Assembly (NCBI GenBank): GCA_900320905.1
Contig: ONTZ01000022.1
Span: 1-46,802, forward strand
DNA: 46,802 nt
DNA from: an uncultured Prevotella sp.
GTDB taxonomy: Bacteria > Bacteroidota > Bacteroidia > Bacteroidales > Bacteroidaceae
Reading direction: 5' to 3'
Positions 595-9,715 of the stretch are shown in pieces. The stretch's first letter is position 1; each line of letters starts with the position of its first letter. The position numbers and the translations under genes are program-made. The notes beneath the pieces are model-generated. The model was not told the origin of the DNA. It saw only the letters and a program-made list of their open reading frames with translations, and did not search any database.

Positions 595-1572
595 ATGCGA
601 TTAACAACCATTTTTTTGCTGTGTATTCCATTGTCAGGCCTTTCTGTTCAAACAAAGGCTCAGGATGCTATTTTTGTGTATGGGAAAGGCACTTGCACTG
701 CCATAGATATCCAGAATGTCGATGAAATCAAAATGACAGAGGAAGTAGTGGATATCTCCCTTGGAGTTAACTATAGAAGTACTGATGTTGACAGCATCAC
801 GTTCAGAGAACCAGAAGTGGATTATGGTCGTATCGGGTGGTGGGGTAGTTCGGCAGATGGTCCTTCCGCTTGTTATTATCAGTCCTTCCGAAAGGATCAT
901 CCAGACATGACCTTCGAAACTGCTGACAGCATCTGTACCTCAGCCTTTTACTACTTACCGGATGAAGAGTCGTTGCTTCAGTCACGTCGGAGAGTTGGCC
1001 GGAAATGGCGATATGTCAAGAATACGCTTTCTGGTCGTCGTAAGTTTCAAATCCATCAAATCCATCAGCAAGAAGCGGATAACGATCATACAAAAATGGA
1101 TGAAAACGGGCTGATCTATCTGGATCTGACCAACCAGTTCTGCAACCGTCCTATCATAGAAGCCAGGAAAGCAGTCAATATGTGGTACCATCCTCAGGAT
1201 ACTGCCAGCATGCCCCAAAAACCTTTGTTCGGAACGATTGAAAGAATCAACTATGAGCGTAGTGAATTCATCCACTATGACGTGCCTCTGTATGGAATTG
1301 ACGATAGTATCCACTGCCACATCTTTTTTTGGAACGATAACGGAATGGTCAGGGGAGACTCGATGAGAATTGTGTTTCCTGACCATCTCCTGGCAGAGGA
1401 GGAATTTGAACTCATGGATACTGAAGCCGACGAATCCACACATTTTTTTATTACTGACAATACCATCTATATTGTTGAAGAATTCGAGGCAACAATCGAC
1501 GATGTGATGCGCTGGCTCATACGTTTCGACCTTGATGTCTGTAAACCAATCTATATTCGTGAAGAGGAATGA
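595..1572 (+). CDS. Secreted protein of unknown function
   Basis: 325 residues. I chose the ATG at 595 because it starts a clean signal peptide (MRLTTIFLLCIPLSGLS, then a TKAQ/D cleavage region); the frame extends upstream to 529 but through the promoter. The start of the mature part (IFVYGKGTCTAIDIQNVDEI) resembles the short N-terminal strand module often seen on secreted Bacteroidales proteins. I recognise no catalytic motif or family in the rest. The stop overlaps the next start by 4 bases (ATGA), so it is cotranscribed with the TPR regulator, suggesting an exported partner or reporter of that regulator. Confidence 0.65.
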   Translation: MRLTTIFLLCIPLSGLSVQTKAQDAIFVYGKGTCTAIDIQNVDEIKMTEEVVDISLGVNYRSTDVDSITFREPEVDYGRIGWWGSSADGPSACYYQSFRKDHPDMTFETADSICTSAFYYLPDEESLLQSRRRVGRKWRYVKNTLSGRRKFQIHQIHQQEADNDHTKMDENGLIYLDLTNQFCNRPIIEARKAVNMWYHPQDTASMPQKPLFGTIERINYERSEFIHYDVPLYGIDDSIHCHIFFWNDNGMVRGDSMRIVFPDHLLAEEEFELMDTEADESTHFFITDNTIYIVEEFEATIDDVMRWLIRFDLDVCKPIYIREEE

Positions 1573-2894
1573 AAAAACTACTATCACTCTTGTTGTCGGC
1601 CATCTTCTTGGCAGGATGTACTGCATCCAGGGGACGACAATCTTATGAAGAAGCCCTTTGCTGCATAGAACAGGGAGATGCCCCTCAGGCGCTTGCCTGT
1701 CTGAAAGAGGCAGCAGAACTGGCTACTGACGATTCACTCCGCATAGCCATCTATAACGATATGGGCCGGTTGCTCTTTGACGAAGGCCTACAGGAGCAGG
1801 CGTTGGATGCTTATCAGATGGCTTTAGAGAACTGTCGGGCTATGGCAGATACGCTTGGCATGGCCTATGTGCAGTTTGATATAGCCAATATTTACCGTAC
1901 ACGCGATGACGATGACAGTTGTGTCTACTATTTCGATGCTGCTATGAGTCAGGCCCTGTCACAAAAGGACAGTCTGCTGGCAACTGACATCCGAAACCAA
2001 TTAGCGGGCTACTATTTGTGGCATAAGGACTATGAACGGGCACGGCAATTGCTGTCTCCCTCATTGTCACAAGCGAAAGAGACGACTGGTGGCATCTGTT
2101 TCATGGCTGCAGACCTCTATCGCCAGACTGGTCCAGCAGACTCCGCTCGTTATTACTGCAAGTTGCTGCTACAGAATGAGGAGACAGGACTGCGACAGAT
2201 GGGACACAAATGGCTGGCAGATCTGTTATTGACAGAAGGACGGGTAGAAGAGGCTGCCAAACATCTGCATCAATACGAACTATTGACAGACACTCTGATG
2301 CAAGAGACTGACACAGAATCGCTTCGCCGGATCAGTGCGCTCTATGACTACTCCCTGCGCGAACAGGAAAATGCACGTCTGGAGCAGCAAATAATCATAG
2401 CCATAGCAATTATCACGGTGCTGATTCTTCTATTGGTGGCTGCCGTCCTCTATTTCAGTCGCCGTCGTATGAAATATAGGATGAAGGTACAGCAGTTGGA
2501 ACATCTCCTGGCAGACTATCGCCAGCGTGATGAAAAAGTCACTGAGCGACAGAACGGGATATTGGCTGATACGCCCATCTGTCGTCATATCAACCGTCTT
2601 TTGAGCGACTCACGCCAACCTTCGATGACTGATGAAGACTGGCACATCTTAGAAGATACCTTTGTGAAGATACAACCCACCTTCTTGAGCCGCCTGCAGA
2701 CGTTCCACAAGTTCTCATCCCATGAGATGCATATCTGTATGTTGCTAAGGCTCGGTTTGCAGCCTGCAGCGCTCGCTCAACTGTCCGCCCATTCCAAACA
2801 ATCCGTTTCCAGTACCCGTTCGCGGCTGTTCGAAAAGGTCTTTGGACAAAAGGGCACACCTGCCCAATGGGACGAATTTATTCTGTCATTATAG
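1569..2894 (+). CDS. TPR membrane protein with C-terminal HTH (putative membrane-bound regulator)
   Basis: 441 residues. A lipoprotein-like signal (FLAGC, Cys17) is followed by tetratricopeptide-like helical repeats to about residue 260. A membrane helix follows (IIIAIAIITVLILLLVAAV, roughly 275-295), then basic residues, a short coiled coil and a C-terminal domain with a LuxR/GerE-like HTH (HICMLLRLGLQPAALAQLSA...SVSSTRSRLFEKVFG). This is the Bacteroidetes pattern of an exported TPR sensor joined by one helix to a cytoplasmic DNA-binding region. Its start overlaps the preceding stop. GCGTACT-like boxes before both its operon and the next gene are candidate sites. Having both a lipobox and a second helix is unusual; the first may be an ordinary signal peptide. 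Confidence 0.7.
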   Translation: MKKLLSLLLSAIFLAGCTASRGRQSYEEALCCIEQGDAPQALACLKEAAELATDDSLRIAIYNDMGRLLFDEGLQEQALDAYQMALENCRAMADTLGMAYVQFDIANIYRTRDDDDSCVYYFDAAMSQALSQKDSLLATDIRNQLAGYYLWHKDYERARQLLSPSLSQAKETTGGICFMAADLYRQTGPADSARYYCKLLLQNEETGLRQMGHKWLADLLLTEGRVEEAAKHLHQYELLTDTLMQETDTESLRRISALYDYSLREQENARLEQQIIIAIAIITVLILLLVAAVLYFSRRRMKYRMKVQQLEHLLADYRQRDEKVTERQNGILADTPICRHINRLLSDSRQPSMTDEDWHILEDTFVKIQPTFLSRLQTFHKFSSHEMHICMLLRLGLQPAALAQLSAHSKQSVSSTRSRLFEKVFGQKGTPAQWDEFILSL

Positions 2895-4720: not shown

Positions 4721-4763
4721 GGTGCAGTCTTTTTCCCTGTTGTAGGACTATATAAATAGAGAC
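4721..4763 (+). promoter_or_regulatory. Duplicated ECF-type promoter, copy 1
   Basis: GTGCAGTCTTTTT (4722-4734), 10 bases, GGACTATATAA (4745-4755), then TAGAGAC, ending 3 bases before the ATG. The same two blocks at the same spacing stand at 6512-6545. It does not fit the usual TTTG/TAnnTTTG promoter. It is likely recognised by the sigma domain encoded just downstream (inference). Confidence 0.6.
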
Positions 4764-4766
4764 GTT

Positions 4767-6509
4767 ATGCTGACGATGGAGATAACACGGCTGATAGAAC
4801 GGTGCAGACAGGGGGATGCGGATGCCCTCGGAGAACTGTACAAGGCATACGCCCAGAGGATGAGGGGTGTGTGCCGACGCTATATCAGCGATGAGCAGAC
4901 GGTGGAAGATGTACTGCACGACGCTTTCGTGATTATCTTCACTTCGTTTGACAGGCTGCGCGACAGCAATAAAGCAGAGGCTTGGATGACGACCATCACG
5001 AGGAACGTGGCATCGAAATGCAAGGATCACCTGGAGGCATTGCCAACGGTTTCGCTCGAAGAGACGAGCGAGGCGGAACTGATTGCATCTGAGAACGAGG
5101 AAAGGGACGTGAGGGGTGTGCCGCTGAGCAAGGTGGTGAGGATGATTGACAGACTGCCGGAGGGCTACGGGCAGGTGTTCCGTTTGTCAGTGTTCGAGGG
5201 CATGACGCACAAGGAGATTGCCGACATGCTGGGCATTGAGCCACATTCGTCATCATCGCAACTGGCACGGGCAAAGAAGATGCTACGCAAGATGATGCAG
5301 CAGTATTGGGTAGCCGTGCTTCTGTTGTTACTTATTCCCATGACGTTCTTCCTGCTCAAAAAAGGAGATACTGCTATCAAGGATGAAGACGGCGGTGAGC
5401 ACCAGTCGTCGGCAGTTGTGGCGAAACAGAAAGAGACATCCAAAGAATTGTCGAAAAAATCTCCGAAAGACCAGCCGCAGGAGCCTGTGATTGTTCATCT
5501 GCCAGTGCATCGTACCACTGTCATTGGCTTAGACATCCTGCAATCGGTCATCGCCCAGGCTTTAGATTCTGTCATGTCTGACACCTTATCTAATATAATT
5601 GCCCAAGAGCAAATTGTAACTGACACCATAGCGACCGACACGATAAAGGCTATACGCAAGATGGAGATACCGCATTACGACATTGCCGACTTGTTCCACG
5701 AAAAGCCAACCATCAGCACTATTAACGATAAGAAATGGTCGTTGGAATTGGCATACGCAGGACAGTTCGACACACAGAACCGTTATAATCAGCCGTTCAG
5801 TTATAAACCCACGCCGTCTGATGCACAATCTCTGCCTGGGCCATCCCCAAGTCCGATAATCCCGAGTAGCATTGACAACTGGATGGACTATGCTGTCTAT
5901 CTGGCAAATCATCCTGATGTTGTGAGTGACCAAACTCGTAGCGTCATCATGCGCATCGCCCTGAACAACGCCAGCCGTCCTGGTGAAGATAAGATTCTGC
6001 GTACGAGCCACCATCAGATGCCTATTACGTGGTCGTTGGCATTGAAGTACAGATTGAATCATCGCTTTGGACTGGAGTCTGGTCTCAGTTACAGCCGTCT
6101 GACCTCGGACTTCGAGATGGGAGCCGATGGTAATATTATAACCGAACAGCAGACCATCCACTATTTTGGCATCCCCATGAAAGGTATATATAATCTGTAT
6201 GGTGTGAAACATTGGAGTGTCTACGGCAGTCTTGGTCTGACAACCGAAATCCCCGTCCGTTCTACCCTCCACTCAGACTTCTATGTGAATGGTCAGTATG
6301 AGGCCAGCGACAGGACTACCATCCGCGCACCGTGGCAGTTCTCTACCTCCTTCGGTATTGGCCTGCAATACCACCTGACACCCAACGTCGGTTTCTTCGT
6401 AGAGCCAAGCCTACAGTACTATATCCCGATGCGTAGCGATATCGAGACCTACCGTACGGAGCATCCGTTCACCTTCTCTTTGCCATTAGGCATCAGATTT
6501 ACGTGGTAG
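4767..6509 (+). CDS. ECF sigma factor fused to a membrane helix, periplasmic linker and outer-membrane beta-barrel
   Basis: One uninterrupted 580-residue frame. Residues 1-90 form sigma region 2 (ALGELYKAYAQRM, VEDVLHDAFVIIF, AWMTTITRNVA) and 118-177 region 4 (LPEGYGQVFRL, GMTHKEIADMLGI, HTH). A basic stretch precedes a helix at about 181-197 (WVAVLLLLLIPMTFFLL). A Lys/Gln/Asp-rich linker follows to about 320, then alternating strands of an OMP_b-brl-type barrel ending in Trp580. It would span both membranes: sigma in the cytoplasm, barrel in the outer membrane. Anti-sigma versions of this layout (Dma proteins of Bacteroides) are known to me; here the sigma itself is tethered. Release by proteolysis or regulation in place are both possible. 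Met4 is an alternative start. Confidence 0.8.
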   Translation: MLTMEITRLIERCRQGDADALGELYKAYAQRMRGVCRRYISDEQTVEDVLHDAFVIIFTSFDRLRDSNKAEAWMTTITRNVASKCKDHLEALPTVSLEETSEAELIASENEERDVRGVPLSKVVRMIDRLPEGYGQVFRLSVFEGMTHKEIADMLGIEPHSSSSQLARAKKMLRKMMQQYWVAVLLLLLIPMTFFLLKKGDTAIKDEDGGEHQSSAVVAKQKETSKELSKKSPKDQPQEPVIVHLPVHRTTVIGLDILQSVIAQALDSVMSDTLSNIIAQEQIVTDTIATDTIKAIRKMEIPHYDIADLFHEKPTISTINDKKWSLELAYAGQFDTQNRYNQPFSYKPTPSDAQSLPGPSPSPIIPSSIDNWMDYAVYLANHPDVVSDQTRSVIMRIALNNASRPGEDKILRTSHHQMPITWSLALKYRLNHRFGLESGLSYSRLTSDFEMGADGNIITEQQTIHYFGIPMKGIYNLYGVKHWSVYGSLGLTTEIPVRSTLHSDFYVNGQYEASDRTTIRAPWQFSTSFGIGLQYHLTPNVGFFVEPSLQYYIPMRSDIETYRTEHPFTFSLPLGIRFTW

Positions 6510-6510
6510 C

Positions 6511-6557
6511 CGTGCAGTCTTTTTGCAGTCCGGCGGACTATATAAGTAAAGAGACAT
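6511..6557 (+). promoter_or_regulatory. Duplicated ECF-type promoter, copy 2
   Basis: GTGCAGTCTTTTT at 6512-6524, 10 bases, GGACTATATAA at 6535-6545, then AAGAGAC, beginning 2 bases after the sigma-fusion stop. Both blocks and the spacing equal copy 1. The spacer differs and can fold here (AGTCC-GGC-GGACT). It drives the lipoprotein gene at 6579. Confidence 0.6.
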
Positions 6558-7180: not shown

Positions 7181-8212
7181 TCAGAGAGTCCCTTGATCTA
7201 CACCATAATACGGTGTCAATGTTGATCTACGGTAATTGTATGATTGCCAATAATAACGTTTCAACTGTTCAGAAAGGAAAGAGCGGTTTATAAGTTCATG
7301 GGCGAGGGGATGCTCAGTTGCGAAGATATCTAGTTCACGTTTGACGAGACGAGGAGATAGACCGATGCGACGTCCGAACTCTTCAAAATCCTTACGGCTG
7401 ACGGTATGGGTGTCTGAGAACTGCATGCCCTCGCGGAACAGTCCTTTATCGAGTGCAAAGATGCGTGGCTCATACAGGTGAAGGCTTGTGTTAATCAAGT
7501 CATAGGCTGGCGTTAAATGGTATTCTCCATTGCCGCGGTTCATCAATGAGAAGTTCTTCAGATGGGCATCGTCGTTCAATATCAGATAGTTAAATACCAC
7601 GATGCGAAAGAACTTCAGTATTTCAACAGGAGCCGCTTTTGTGTACTTTCGAATGATTTCTGCACACTCCTCATAACTCAGATTACTGTATTTATAGTTG
7701 CTGCCGCCATTGGCCTTAGTCAGTCCTCCCAGCGAGGCTAAGTCTTCCTGCTGGTATTTACCACCATCGGGAGCCACATCGAAACGTCGTGTCAGATAAG
7801 CAGCCTCGCCATTGCGAAAGAAACAGAGTCCATTGGAGGCTGTCTCGATATGATAGACCTGTGCGGCTATCTGCATGCTTAGATGCTCATTGGCAGGGCA
7901 GTATTTCCGTTCCATCAGTGTATATGATGAAGGGGCTGGCTTCAGGATATATTGACCACGCTCTCCGTCTGAGGGCCTGACGAGATGTCCGTCAGTATTT
8001 AGTACTAAACTTGCCTTGGGCTGTACGCCAGAAAGCGATATTCGGCCTACATGACGGGCATACTCCTCTGAATCGGAATTCTCGTTGTTGGGACTGTCGA
8101 AAGGAAGAATATGTGAAACCACCTTGCCATCAAACAACAGTTTGCGGGCAGTAGGCGAATAGGTATCAAAACCTTCTGCCAATGTAGAGGGACAAACAGT
8201 CAGTGTTTCCAT
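7181..8212 (-). CDS. hipT: HipT-like serine/threonine kinase toxin (HipA C-terminal family)
   Basis: 343 residues. It covers the kinase body of HipA without the N-terminal subdomain, which is the separate upstream gene, as in three-gene hipBST systems. Visible motifs: a Gly-rich loop with a Ser-x-Ser pair (ISLSGVQPKASLV, Ser59/Ser61, the position of HipT autophosphorylation), the catalytic loop NDDAHLKN (213-220) and the metal-binding Asp238 in AYDLIN. HipA/HipT kinases phosphorylate aminoacyl-tRNA synthetases (GltX for HipA, TrpS for HipT) and stop translation; the target here is unknown. Its ATG overlaps the hipS stop by one base (TGATG), implying coupled translation. Confidence 0.85.
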   Translation of the reverse strand: METLTVCPSTLAEGFDTYSPTARKLLFDGKVVSHILPFDSPNNENSDSEEYARHVGRISLSGVQPKASLVLNTDGHLVRPSDGERGQYILKPAPSSYTLMERKYCPANEHLSMQIAAQVYHIETASNGLCFFRNGEAAYLTRRFDVAPDGGKYQQEDLASLGGLTKANGGSNYKYSNLSYEECAEIIRKYTKAAPVEILKFFRIVVFNYLILNDDAHLKNFSLMNRGNGEYHLTPAYDLINTSLHLYEPRIFALDKGLFREGMQFSDTHTVSRKDFEEFGRRIGLSPRLVKRELDIFATEHPLAHELINRSFLSEQLKRYYWQSYNYRRSTLTPYYGVDQGTL

Positions 8213-8523
8213 CAGTTTATAGGTTTTATGGTTACGGCGCCTATCGTATCGTGCTGGGCTGTTGCCAAAAGGATGCCGAAGTCATCGTTCTCGTCGATAT
8301 GCAGCAACATAGACTGTGTCTGACGATTGGCACCCTCGGAGAGCATGTTGAAAAAATAGGGGAACAGGTGGTCACTAAGATATGGCTCTGTACGTACGGG
8401 CATGGCAATACAGACGGGGGCGCCTGCATACCCATTTATATATGTGAAGATGTACTGACGATCATCTGTTTCCTGCAGGATGCCAGCCTCCACATCGTGA
8501 ACAAGTACCTTACACTGTCTCAT
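8212..8523 (-). CDS. hipS: HipS-like antitoxin (HipA N-terminal subdomain as a separate protein)
   Basis: 103 residues matching the 'Couple_hipA' N-terminal subdomain: a small beta fold with FTYINGYAGAPVCIAMPV, a LFPYFFNMLSEG helix and DENDDFGILLA near the end. In E. coli hipBST the equivalent free protein is the antitoxin that binds the HipT kinase. The order B-S-T is the same here. It overlaps hipB by 14 bases and hipT by 1 base, so the three are one tightly coupled transcript. Gene symbol is given by analogy of architecture. Confidence 0.8.
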   Translation of the reverse strand: MRQCKVLVHDVEAGILQETDDRQYIFTYINGYAGAPVCIAMPVRTEPYLSDHLFPYFFNMLSEGANRQTQSMLLHIDENDDFGILLATAQHDTIGAVTIKPIN

Positions 8524-9079: not shown

Positions 9080-9715
9080 GTCATCCCCCACCCTGGAAAA
9101 GTCTGCCCTAAATCTGGGGCAAGCCATTCCGACCCTGGAAAAGTCTGCCCTAAATCTGGGGCAAGCCATTCCAACCCTGGAAAAGTCTGCCCTGAATCCG
9201 GGGTAAGCCATTCCGACCCCGGAAGAGTCTGCCCTGAATCTGAGGCATATTATTCCGACCCTGGTAAAGTCTGCCCTGAATCTGGGGCAAGGAATTCTGA
9301 TCTCGGGAAAGTCTGCCCTGAATCTGTGGCAAGTCATTCCGACCCCGGAAAAGTCTGTCCTGAATCTGGGGCAAGAAATTCCGACCTCGGAAAAGTATGC
9401 CCTGAATCTGGGGCATATTTCTGCACCCCCTGCATAAGTCTGCCCCGAACCTGAGGCACGTTTCTGCACCCTGTGCATAAGTCTGCCCTGCACCTGAGGC
9501 ACGTTTCTGCACCACGTGCATAAATATGCCCTGAACCTGGGGCACGTTTCTGCACCCCGTGCATAAATATGCCCTGAACCTGGGACACGTTTCTGCACCC
9601 CGTGCATAAGTCTGCCCTGAATCTGGGACACGTTTCTGCACCCCGTGCATAAGTCTGCCCTAAATCTGAGGCTAGGTTTTCAAACTTTTGTATGGTCTAT
9701 CTCGAATCCGAGGCA
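9080..9715. repeat. Tandem array of about 15 palindromic 42/43-bp units
   Basis: The word (A)GTCTGCCCTGAATCTGgGGCA recurs with starts at about 9101, 9143, 9185, 9227, 9269, 9311, 9353, 9395 (42-bp steps) and then 9438, 9481, 9524, 9567, 9610, 9653 (43-bp steps), with a decayed unit at 9695. Each unit holds an inverted repeat TGCC-n10-GGCA. A second hairpin lies in the linker: TTCCG-n4-CGGAA type in the first half, TGCAC-CCC-GTGCA in the second. No unique spacers, so it is not CRISPR. The 43-bp half breaks any reading frame. A second array of the same family is at 39780-40125. Confidence 0.9.

Follow-up and report, generated by a model that had tools for sequence, protein, structure and literature searches.

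In an uncultured Prevotella sp., a single gene (positions 4767 to 6509 of contig ONTZ01000022.1, assembly GCA_900320905.1) encodes a sigma factor of the extracytoplasmic function (ECF) type, a membrane helix, a linker and a predicted outer-membrane barrel in one chain; the whole analyzed stretch of 46,802 nucleotides is referred to as the window. Fused genes of this kind are common in the family of the window's genome, and they are flanked by promoter-like elements that appear to be matched to the sigma domain. We favor a chain that senses envelope or surface stress and give about an even chance to the reading that its sigma domain is released by cleavage, as in IutY of Pseudomonas putida (PMC5411451), and then drives a local positive feedback. 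If true, the signaling from the outer membrane to the nucleoid, usually a relay of separate proteins, would be shortened to a single chain, and a surface signal might reach the genome in one molecule that is made by some rumen and gut bacteria.

The fused chain and its distribution

4767..6509, forward strand: whole gene of sigma factor, membrane helix, linker and barrel; 580 residues, ATG start, no internal stop
4791..5036, forward strand: sigma region 2, residues 9-90 (Pfam, AlphaFold2, residue table)
4974-4976, forward strand: codon of sigma residue 70 within region 2, which co-varies with the -10 type
5118..5306, forward strand: sigma region 4, residues 118-180 (Pfam), with the recognition helix PHSSSSQLARAKKMLRKMMQQYW directly continuous with the membrane helix
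5307..5360, forward strand: predicted inner-membrane helix, residues 181-198 (hydropathy, charge count, AlphaFold2 helix), N end inside by charge
5361..5735, forward strand: predicted disordered periplasmic linker, residues 199-323
5736..6506, forward strand: predicted C-terminal eight-stranded barrel, residues 324-580 (Pfam, AlphaFold2, Foldseek)
5763-5996, forward strand: long first barrel loop, residues 333-410, which holds two helices

The sequence-only reading of this DNA had described one frame with sigma regions 2 and 4, a basic stretch followed by a single membrane helix, a charged linker of about 120 residues and a C-terminal beta-barrel ending in tryptophan, and this layout is borne out. 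The open reading frame (ORF) is intact, its true start codon being uncertain (ATG 4767 or ATG 4776, which is Met4), and four Pfam families match above their gathering cut-offs, namely Sigma70_r2 at residues 24-82 (42.6 bits), Sigma70_r4_2 at residues 122-173 (50.5 bits), OMP_b-brl at residues 422-542 (32.9 bits) and OMP_b-brl_2 at residues 423-553 (28.5 bits). The ECF composition, with regions 2 and 4 as the only sigma regions of one chain, is found with Pfam as well as with the sigma70-ECF model TIGR02937 (76.9 bits, cut-off 42.9), and all 20 PDB sequences that match at an E-value of 0.1 are sigma factors or parts thereof and match within residues 2-181. The 15 residues before the membrane helix contain five lysines or arginines and no aspartate or glutamate, the 15 residues after it contain two and five, respectively, and because of this charge pattern the sigma end is placed inside. 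The linker of 125 residues has 15 basic and 20 acidic residues, and the chain indeed ends with tryptophan.

The structure prediction that had been proposed as a check was carried out with AlphaFold2. A first run with an alignment of 39 rows gave a mean predicted local distance difference test (pLDDT) of 59, and a second run with 78 rows reached a mean of 75.6 with a predicted template modeling score (pTM) of 0.47, because of which the orientations of the domains to each other are not fixed. The sigma-2 blocks reach a pLDDT of 90-96 and the sigma-4 blocks 86-91. One helix (residues 159-198) is predicted to run from the recognition helix into the membrane segment, the two blocks of which have just 80 and 59, and residues 199-319 are predicted to be disordered (below 50). 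Eight barrel strands begin at residue 324, with blocks of 88-97 from residue 371 on, so that the barrel is predicted with good confidence. A Foldseek search with the same model found sigmaE, AlgU and SigW at one end and OmpA, OprF and OmpX at the other, the TM-scores of the barrel being 0.61 with OmpA (9fzd) and 0.60 with OprF (4rlc), and the C-terminal domain is predicted to have the fold of an OmpA-like eight-stranded outer-membrane barrel.

Homologs are not always split into two genes, a concern that had been attached to the fused frame. A profile search of the window's family gave matches in 130 of 201 genomes, and the fusion is present in one frame and free of stops in at least 50 of these 201, the window's own included; among these genomes, the match in G086 begins at model position 54, and the ORF in G155 was confirmed. 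In three more genomes (G152, G102 and G156), the fused gene is interrupted by a single in-frame stop. Among the matches listed for 295 genomes sampled across the order, the sole fused case outside the window's family was G419, with two copies. A scan of genome contigs yielded 59 loci, mostly the fused gene or part thereof, from Prevotellaceae, Bacteroidaceae or Bacteroidales bins, many of them ruminant-associated, together with three weak matches in Lysobacter. In total, the retrieved loci contain 99 fused one-frame ORFs, 93 of which are non-identical when the window's copy is counted, and fused genes are also present in two genomes that consist of a single contig (G005 and G150). In a literature search, judged by titles and the openings of abstracts and covering few subscription journals, no fusion of a sigma factor with a barrel was recognized.

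Two alignments were used, one with 39 rows (the window and 38 of the 59 scan loci, excluding near-copies, partial or broken genes and the three Lysobacter matches), the other with 78 rows (the window and 77 further fused ORFs, out of 92 that are non-identical). In the 39-row alignment, the median ratio of nonsynonymous to synonymous substitution rates (dN/dS, pairs with usable dS) is 0.116 for the sigma part (336 pairs), 0.125 for the barrel (250 pairs), 0.218 for the membrane helix (395 pairs) and 0.325 for the linker (297 pairs). Judged by these ratios, both ends of the fused protein are under purifying selection and maintained as protein. The 99 fused ORFs, the single-contig genomes and the low dN/dS rule out an assembly artifact or a chance frame. 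Nor does the sigma domain appear to lack residues for contact with core RNA polymerase: in the 78-row alignment, the residues typical of ECF factors are kept (aspartate or glutamate 48 in 78/78 rows, D52 and F54 in 77/78, W73 in 78/78, N80 in 74/78, Q165 in 78/78), and these we take to be the contacts to core RNA polymerase or promoter. The linker between positions 200 and 324 varies from 95 to 140 residues in this alignment, and in the 90 of 93 fused ORFs with a matched HSSSS motif the membrane segment begins 17-24 residues past that motif.

Promoter-like elements and their apparent match to the sigma domain

4723..4758, forward strand: promoter-like element 1, with -35-like TGCAGTCTTT (4723-4732) and -10-like GGACTATATAAATA (4745-4758); begins 44 nt before the gene
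6513..6548, forward strand: promoter-like element 2, between the stop of the fused gene and the lipoprotein gene; second perfect copy in the window's genome
6579..7133, forward strand: lipoprotein gene, 184 residues, TVTAC lipobox, no Pfam family above cut-off

Beyond the fused architecture itself, the pair of promoter-like elements flanking the gene is a new observation. The elements follow the pattern TGCAGTCTTT-N12-GGACTATA, and TGCAGTCTTT presumably resembles the -35 consensus of SigW. In the window's own genome assembly (G000, 82% complete), the two-part pattern is matched perfectly by elements 1 and 2 alone, and there is no further site within three mismatches of the 36-nt form; the pattern with the 12-nt spacer gave 29 matches in all vs 32 in a reversed control and thus, beyond the two perfect ones, noise. 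A core that is TGCAGTCTTT or close to it precedes 83 of 92 fused genes, 64 of 93 loci have the -35-like core again within 180 nt past the stop of the fused gene, and the -10 block, where recognized, lies 21 or 22 nt from the first base of the core in 56/66 upstream and 58/66 downstream sites. Several loci (e.g. L009 and L010) have a further copy of the core before a radical-SAM gene.

Perfect GGACTNTA sites in 13 genomes adjoin a fused gene in all cases (15/15; 4 of the 13 genomes had none, and the reversed control gave zero), as do 19 of 21 perfect TATCTAT sites in 12 genomes (one genome had none, and the control gave zero); the two sets of genomes overlap in G060 and G181. These genome counts are of perfect matches only, weaker distant targets could exist, and the -10 types and site matches rest on our own regular expressions. 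One perfect TATCTAT-type site (G071:C219:12638-12667) is located on a different contig from the fused gene and may be a distant target.

The -10-like blocks fall into four types, GGACT-, GTACT-, TATCTA- and CTCCT-like, and the type is identical at both flanks in 60 of 66 two-site loci, against 30.7 on average and at most 45 in 10,000 permutations; one of the mismatches (L081) is probably mis-called. The type also tracks residue 70 of the sigma domain, a position that we take to lie in the -10 specificity loop: in the 78-row alignment, it is alanine in 40/40 rows of the GGACT- and GTACT-like types, phenylalanine in 18 and leucine in 3 of the 21 rows of the TATCTA-like type, and leucine in 6/6 rows of the CTCCT-like type. 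A better control against shared ancestry than such residue counts is the comparison of paralogs within one genome. The two fused paralogs of G181 (L098 and L106) each have their own -10 type at both flanks, and the same holds for L045 and L109, both assigned to G060 from their coordinates; in G010, L073 has GGACT at both flanks and L121 has a TATCTA-like block upstream and lacks a site downstream. From this covariation it is predicted that the sigma domain directs transcription from a specific promoter. Because the sites flank fused genes and their -10 type agrees at both flanks and tracks residue 70, the sigma end appears to be active on a regulon that is mainly local.

A likely target is the lipoprotein gene that follows element 2, as 41 of 93 loci encode a lipoprotein of this cluster (about 185 residues) beside the fused gene, 40 of them directly downstream. 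Of other genes in the 93 loci, radical-SAM/SPASM genes are found in 46, Gfo/Idh/MocA-like genes in 44 and methyltransferases in 17.

Split relatives and known systems

The profile of the fused protein also matches split pairs. In the 11 such loci analyzed, a sigma factor of 182-200 residues is immediately followed by a protein of 412-439 residues, which starts with a short domain at its N terminus (approximate consensus KWI..LR.RM.DYSEP.P..LW..LEKEL) and continues with membrane helix, linker and barrel. Two publications describe pairs of this layout: in Das/Dma of Bacteroides, loss of dma2 raises das2 and its neighbors (PMC13088901), and in a Phocaeicola pair, the sigma gene is induced 33-fold by the toxin BcpT, the proposed signal being envelope stress (PMC9308784). 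In the fused chain, the sigma domain, the membrane helix, the disordered tether and the barrel follow one another as in the split pairs, and the profile alignment with the split protein of L094 covers everything between the beginning of the model's membrane helix and the end of the barrel. As this alignment begins only at residue 55 of the split protein, the part missing from the fused form is the anti-sigma domain. A -35-like core of the same kind is shared as well, since 10 of the 11 split loci have TGCAGTATTTTT before the sigma gene, whereas the -10-like block of the fused loci differs from the CATTTA that 9 of these 10 have at the same offset. Also the local gene set is a common trait, as local genes are induced in the published split cases (PMC13088901, PMC9308784). 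Unlike Das/Dma, the fused form has one gene instead of two, lacks the N-terminal anti-sigma domain, and would have a sigma factor that itself spans the membrane.

A profile of the anti-sigma domain recovers 11/11 split proteins, which are its own training rows, and matches none of the 99 fused ORFs and none of the neighboring ORFs in the loci (best other E-value 1.4). A hidden anti-sigma domain within the fused chain or next door was rejected on this basis, and because of the 0/99 the fused protein is not filed as Dma. Among 12 whole genomes, a domain of the Dma type is present in eight, namely in the split control G080 and in 7 of 10 near-complete fusion-bearing genomes, and was not found at an E-value of 0.01 in G056, G010 and G064 (99-100% complete) or in the incomplete G000. 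The sequence-only reading had held that the anti-sigma step is skipped; this is supported in so far as no such domain was found in the fused loci or in 3 of the 10 near-complete genomes, the other seven having one elsewhere in the genome.

In a tree of the sigma domains, 83 of 84 fused rows stand on one branch (100/96), together with two broken relatives and two fused genes truncated at contig ends (L059 and L060, labeled split); the tree took 84 of the 93 fused rows, is midpoint-rooted, has long branches and an unsettled bootstrap, and implies at least three label changes. Together with the profile searches, it suggests that the fused form descended from split pairs with loss of the anti-sigma domain. 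L131 (2100-3944, reverse strand) is a fused sigma-barrel ORF whose sigma domain is placed with the split ones, on a long branch (88/84), and whose membrane helix likewise follows soon after sigma-4; it is possibly a second, independent fusion. Within the fused clade, L132 (3019-4709) is in two pieces with the break before the barrel, and in L133 (3022-4514) an ORF of sigma domain and membrane helix overlaps a barrel ORF by 4 nt. L136 (2404-3627, reverse strand) is a sigma ORF of 407 residues that has a long C-terminal extension with a hydrophobic stretch and no barrel match.

In one clear case the barrel has been exchanged. In DNA bins of 20 codons, L044 (387-2078) and L014 (5001-6719) share 88-100% identity as far as residue 307, beyond which the next bin has 68%, the barrel bins 32-65% and the last bin 84%; the sigma domain, membrane helix and linker of L044 are thus nearly identical to those of L014, and the barrel is replaced by a distant type, which by eye is also that of L042 and L045. 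There are 29 pairs with a sigma identity above 0.93, seven of which have a barrel identity below 0.6, and because all seven involve L044 this is one well-marked case.

Regulation that is built into the sigma chain past region 4 is known from other ECF factors, for which C-terminal extensions of the SnoaL-like, TPR, metal-binding and anti-sigma-like type have been described, none of them reaching the outer membrane in the accessible part of the source (PMC8999054). IutY is a single sigma/anti-sigma chain that is trimmed and cut by Prc and RseP and thereby released (PMC5411451). Both IutY and the fused chain have a sigma domain that is joined to a membrane helix and a periplasmic part, but IutY has a periplasmic end and requires a separate outer-membrane receptor, whereas the fused chain has its own barrel. 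The periplasmic domain of IutY is FecR-like. No such domain was found in the fused chain with Pfam at an E-value of 1, and the linker is predicted to be disordered. Taken together, we rate the fused form as a variant of Das/Dma, with IutY as mechanistic precedent. It may serve as a natural experiment on Das/Dma, in which the anti-sigma domain seems dispensable when the sigma factor is tethered, and because the family has likely promoters, a co-varying residue and a barrel exchanged with near-identical sigma, input and output could both be swapped in a test.

Proposed mechanism, alternatives and the wider window

The sigma end would be located at the cytoplasmic face of the inner membrane, where its basic recognition helix runs into the membrane helix and the membrane would do the job of the anti-sigma domain, and the barrel would anchor the other end in the outer membrane. 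The signal would be a barrel that is disturbed or fails to assemble, be it by a surface ligand, a toxin or another envelope stress. The periplasmic part would then be trimmed, a site-2 protease (S2P) would cut the membrane helix as in IutY, and the freed sigma factor would fire two or three local promoters, that of its own gene for positive feedback and those of neighboring genes for a lipoprotein, a radical-SAM protein or a methyltransferase. The insertion into the membrane, the inhibition by the tether, the release and the signal are all inferred here. S2P homologs are present in 10/10 near-complete fusion-bearing genomes, and this as well as the apparent descent from split pairs argues for this mechanism; proteolytic release fits at least as well as the earlier idea that the state of the barrel directly holds or releases the sigma domain. 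Several observations weigh against it. S2P was not found in G000, an assembly of 82% completeness, and the Dma-type domains of the seven genomes might act in trans. The upstream core is missing by regular expression in 9 of 92 fused genes and the downstream core within 180 nt in 29 of 93 loci, 2 of the 21 TATCTAT sites do not directly flank a fused gene (one about 2.4 kb downstream of it, one on the other contig), and because the -10-like block ends 8 nt before ATG 4767, the leader would be very short. Residue 115 has mutual information equal to that of residue 70, and shared ancestry can yield the covariation of both, the mutual information being not separable from clade history.

A bolder alternative, which we consider unlikely, is that the sigma factor acts while tethered: never released, it would load RNA polymerase at the inner membrane, and the barrel would alter its activity by position or tension. 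Transertion is the basis for the idea of a gene that is kept at the membrane, and here the nascent chain would keep its own locus there. The near-exclusive position of perfect sites beside fused genes (15/15 in 13 genomes, 19/21 in 12), a membrane helix that starts 17-24 residues past the recognition motif and a linker of 95-140 residues, long enough for movement, would all agree with this, but a local regulon is possible without tethering, one TATCTAT-type (class-C) site is on another contig, the counts of perfect matches leave room for weaker distant targets, and IutY, the tested relative in layout, is cut (PMC5411451). In its full form, with a sigma factor that works anchored across both membranes, without anti-sigma factor or release, in cis on private promoters via transertion, and with exchangeable barrels as inputs, the idea is rather improbable. 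The envelope- or surface-stress sensor with local positive feedback is favored over it. A separate anti-sigma factor might also control the sigma domain in trans, with barrel and membrane parts just for localization, and the Dma-type domains in 7 of 10 near-complete fusion-bearing genomes could provide it; given that none was found at an E-value of 0.01 in G056, G010 and G064 or the incomplete G000, nor among the ORFs of the fused loci, in a search confined to the Dma-type domain, this is quite unlikely.

Alternatively, the chain could be cut once made into a soluble sigma factor and an outer-membrane barrel, so that the fusion merely couples their amounts. The relatives are split, L132 and L133 of the fused clade are in two pieces, and of all segments the linker is under the weakest constraint (dN/dS 0.325), but a membrane helix right after sigma-4, retained with a dN/dS of 0.218, would be pointless for a soluble sigma factor, and we hold this for decidedly improbable. 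Disfavored, and very improbable in our view, is that the repeated element is no sigma promoter but a leader-peptide or recombination sequence. It begins with RTG and can be read as M/V-Q-S-F, yet the RTG is in phase with the gene in 60 of 83 loci, and in 36 of these 60 a stop closes the frame. Direct copies flank the gene and an abrupt barrel exchange exists (L014 vs L044), yet the exchange in L044 starts where the linker ends and not at the element. Neither possibility would agree with the third copy before radical-SAM genes, the -10 offset of 21 or 22 nt (56/66 upstream, 58/66 downstream) or the TGCAGTATTTTT before the sigma gene in 10 of 11 split das loci.

In the window, the lipoprotein gene is followed by a HipA-like gene (7181-8523, reverse strand; HipA_C, 136 bits), and directly upstream of the latter on the same strand is an ORF of 103 residues, in a position that is held by a radical-SAM gene in related loci. 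At 9090-9672 there are tandem arrays (7.8 and 9.5 copies) with repeat units of 42-43 bp, which give rise to overlapping repetitive ORFs on the reverse strand. Upstream of the fused gene, a TPR protein is encoded (1569-2894, forward strand) that has a weak match to the BT3442 family (75 bits, cut-off 940).
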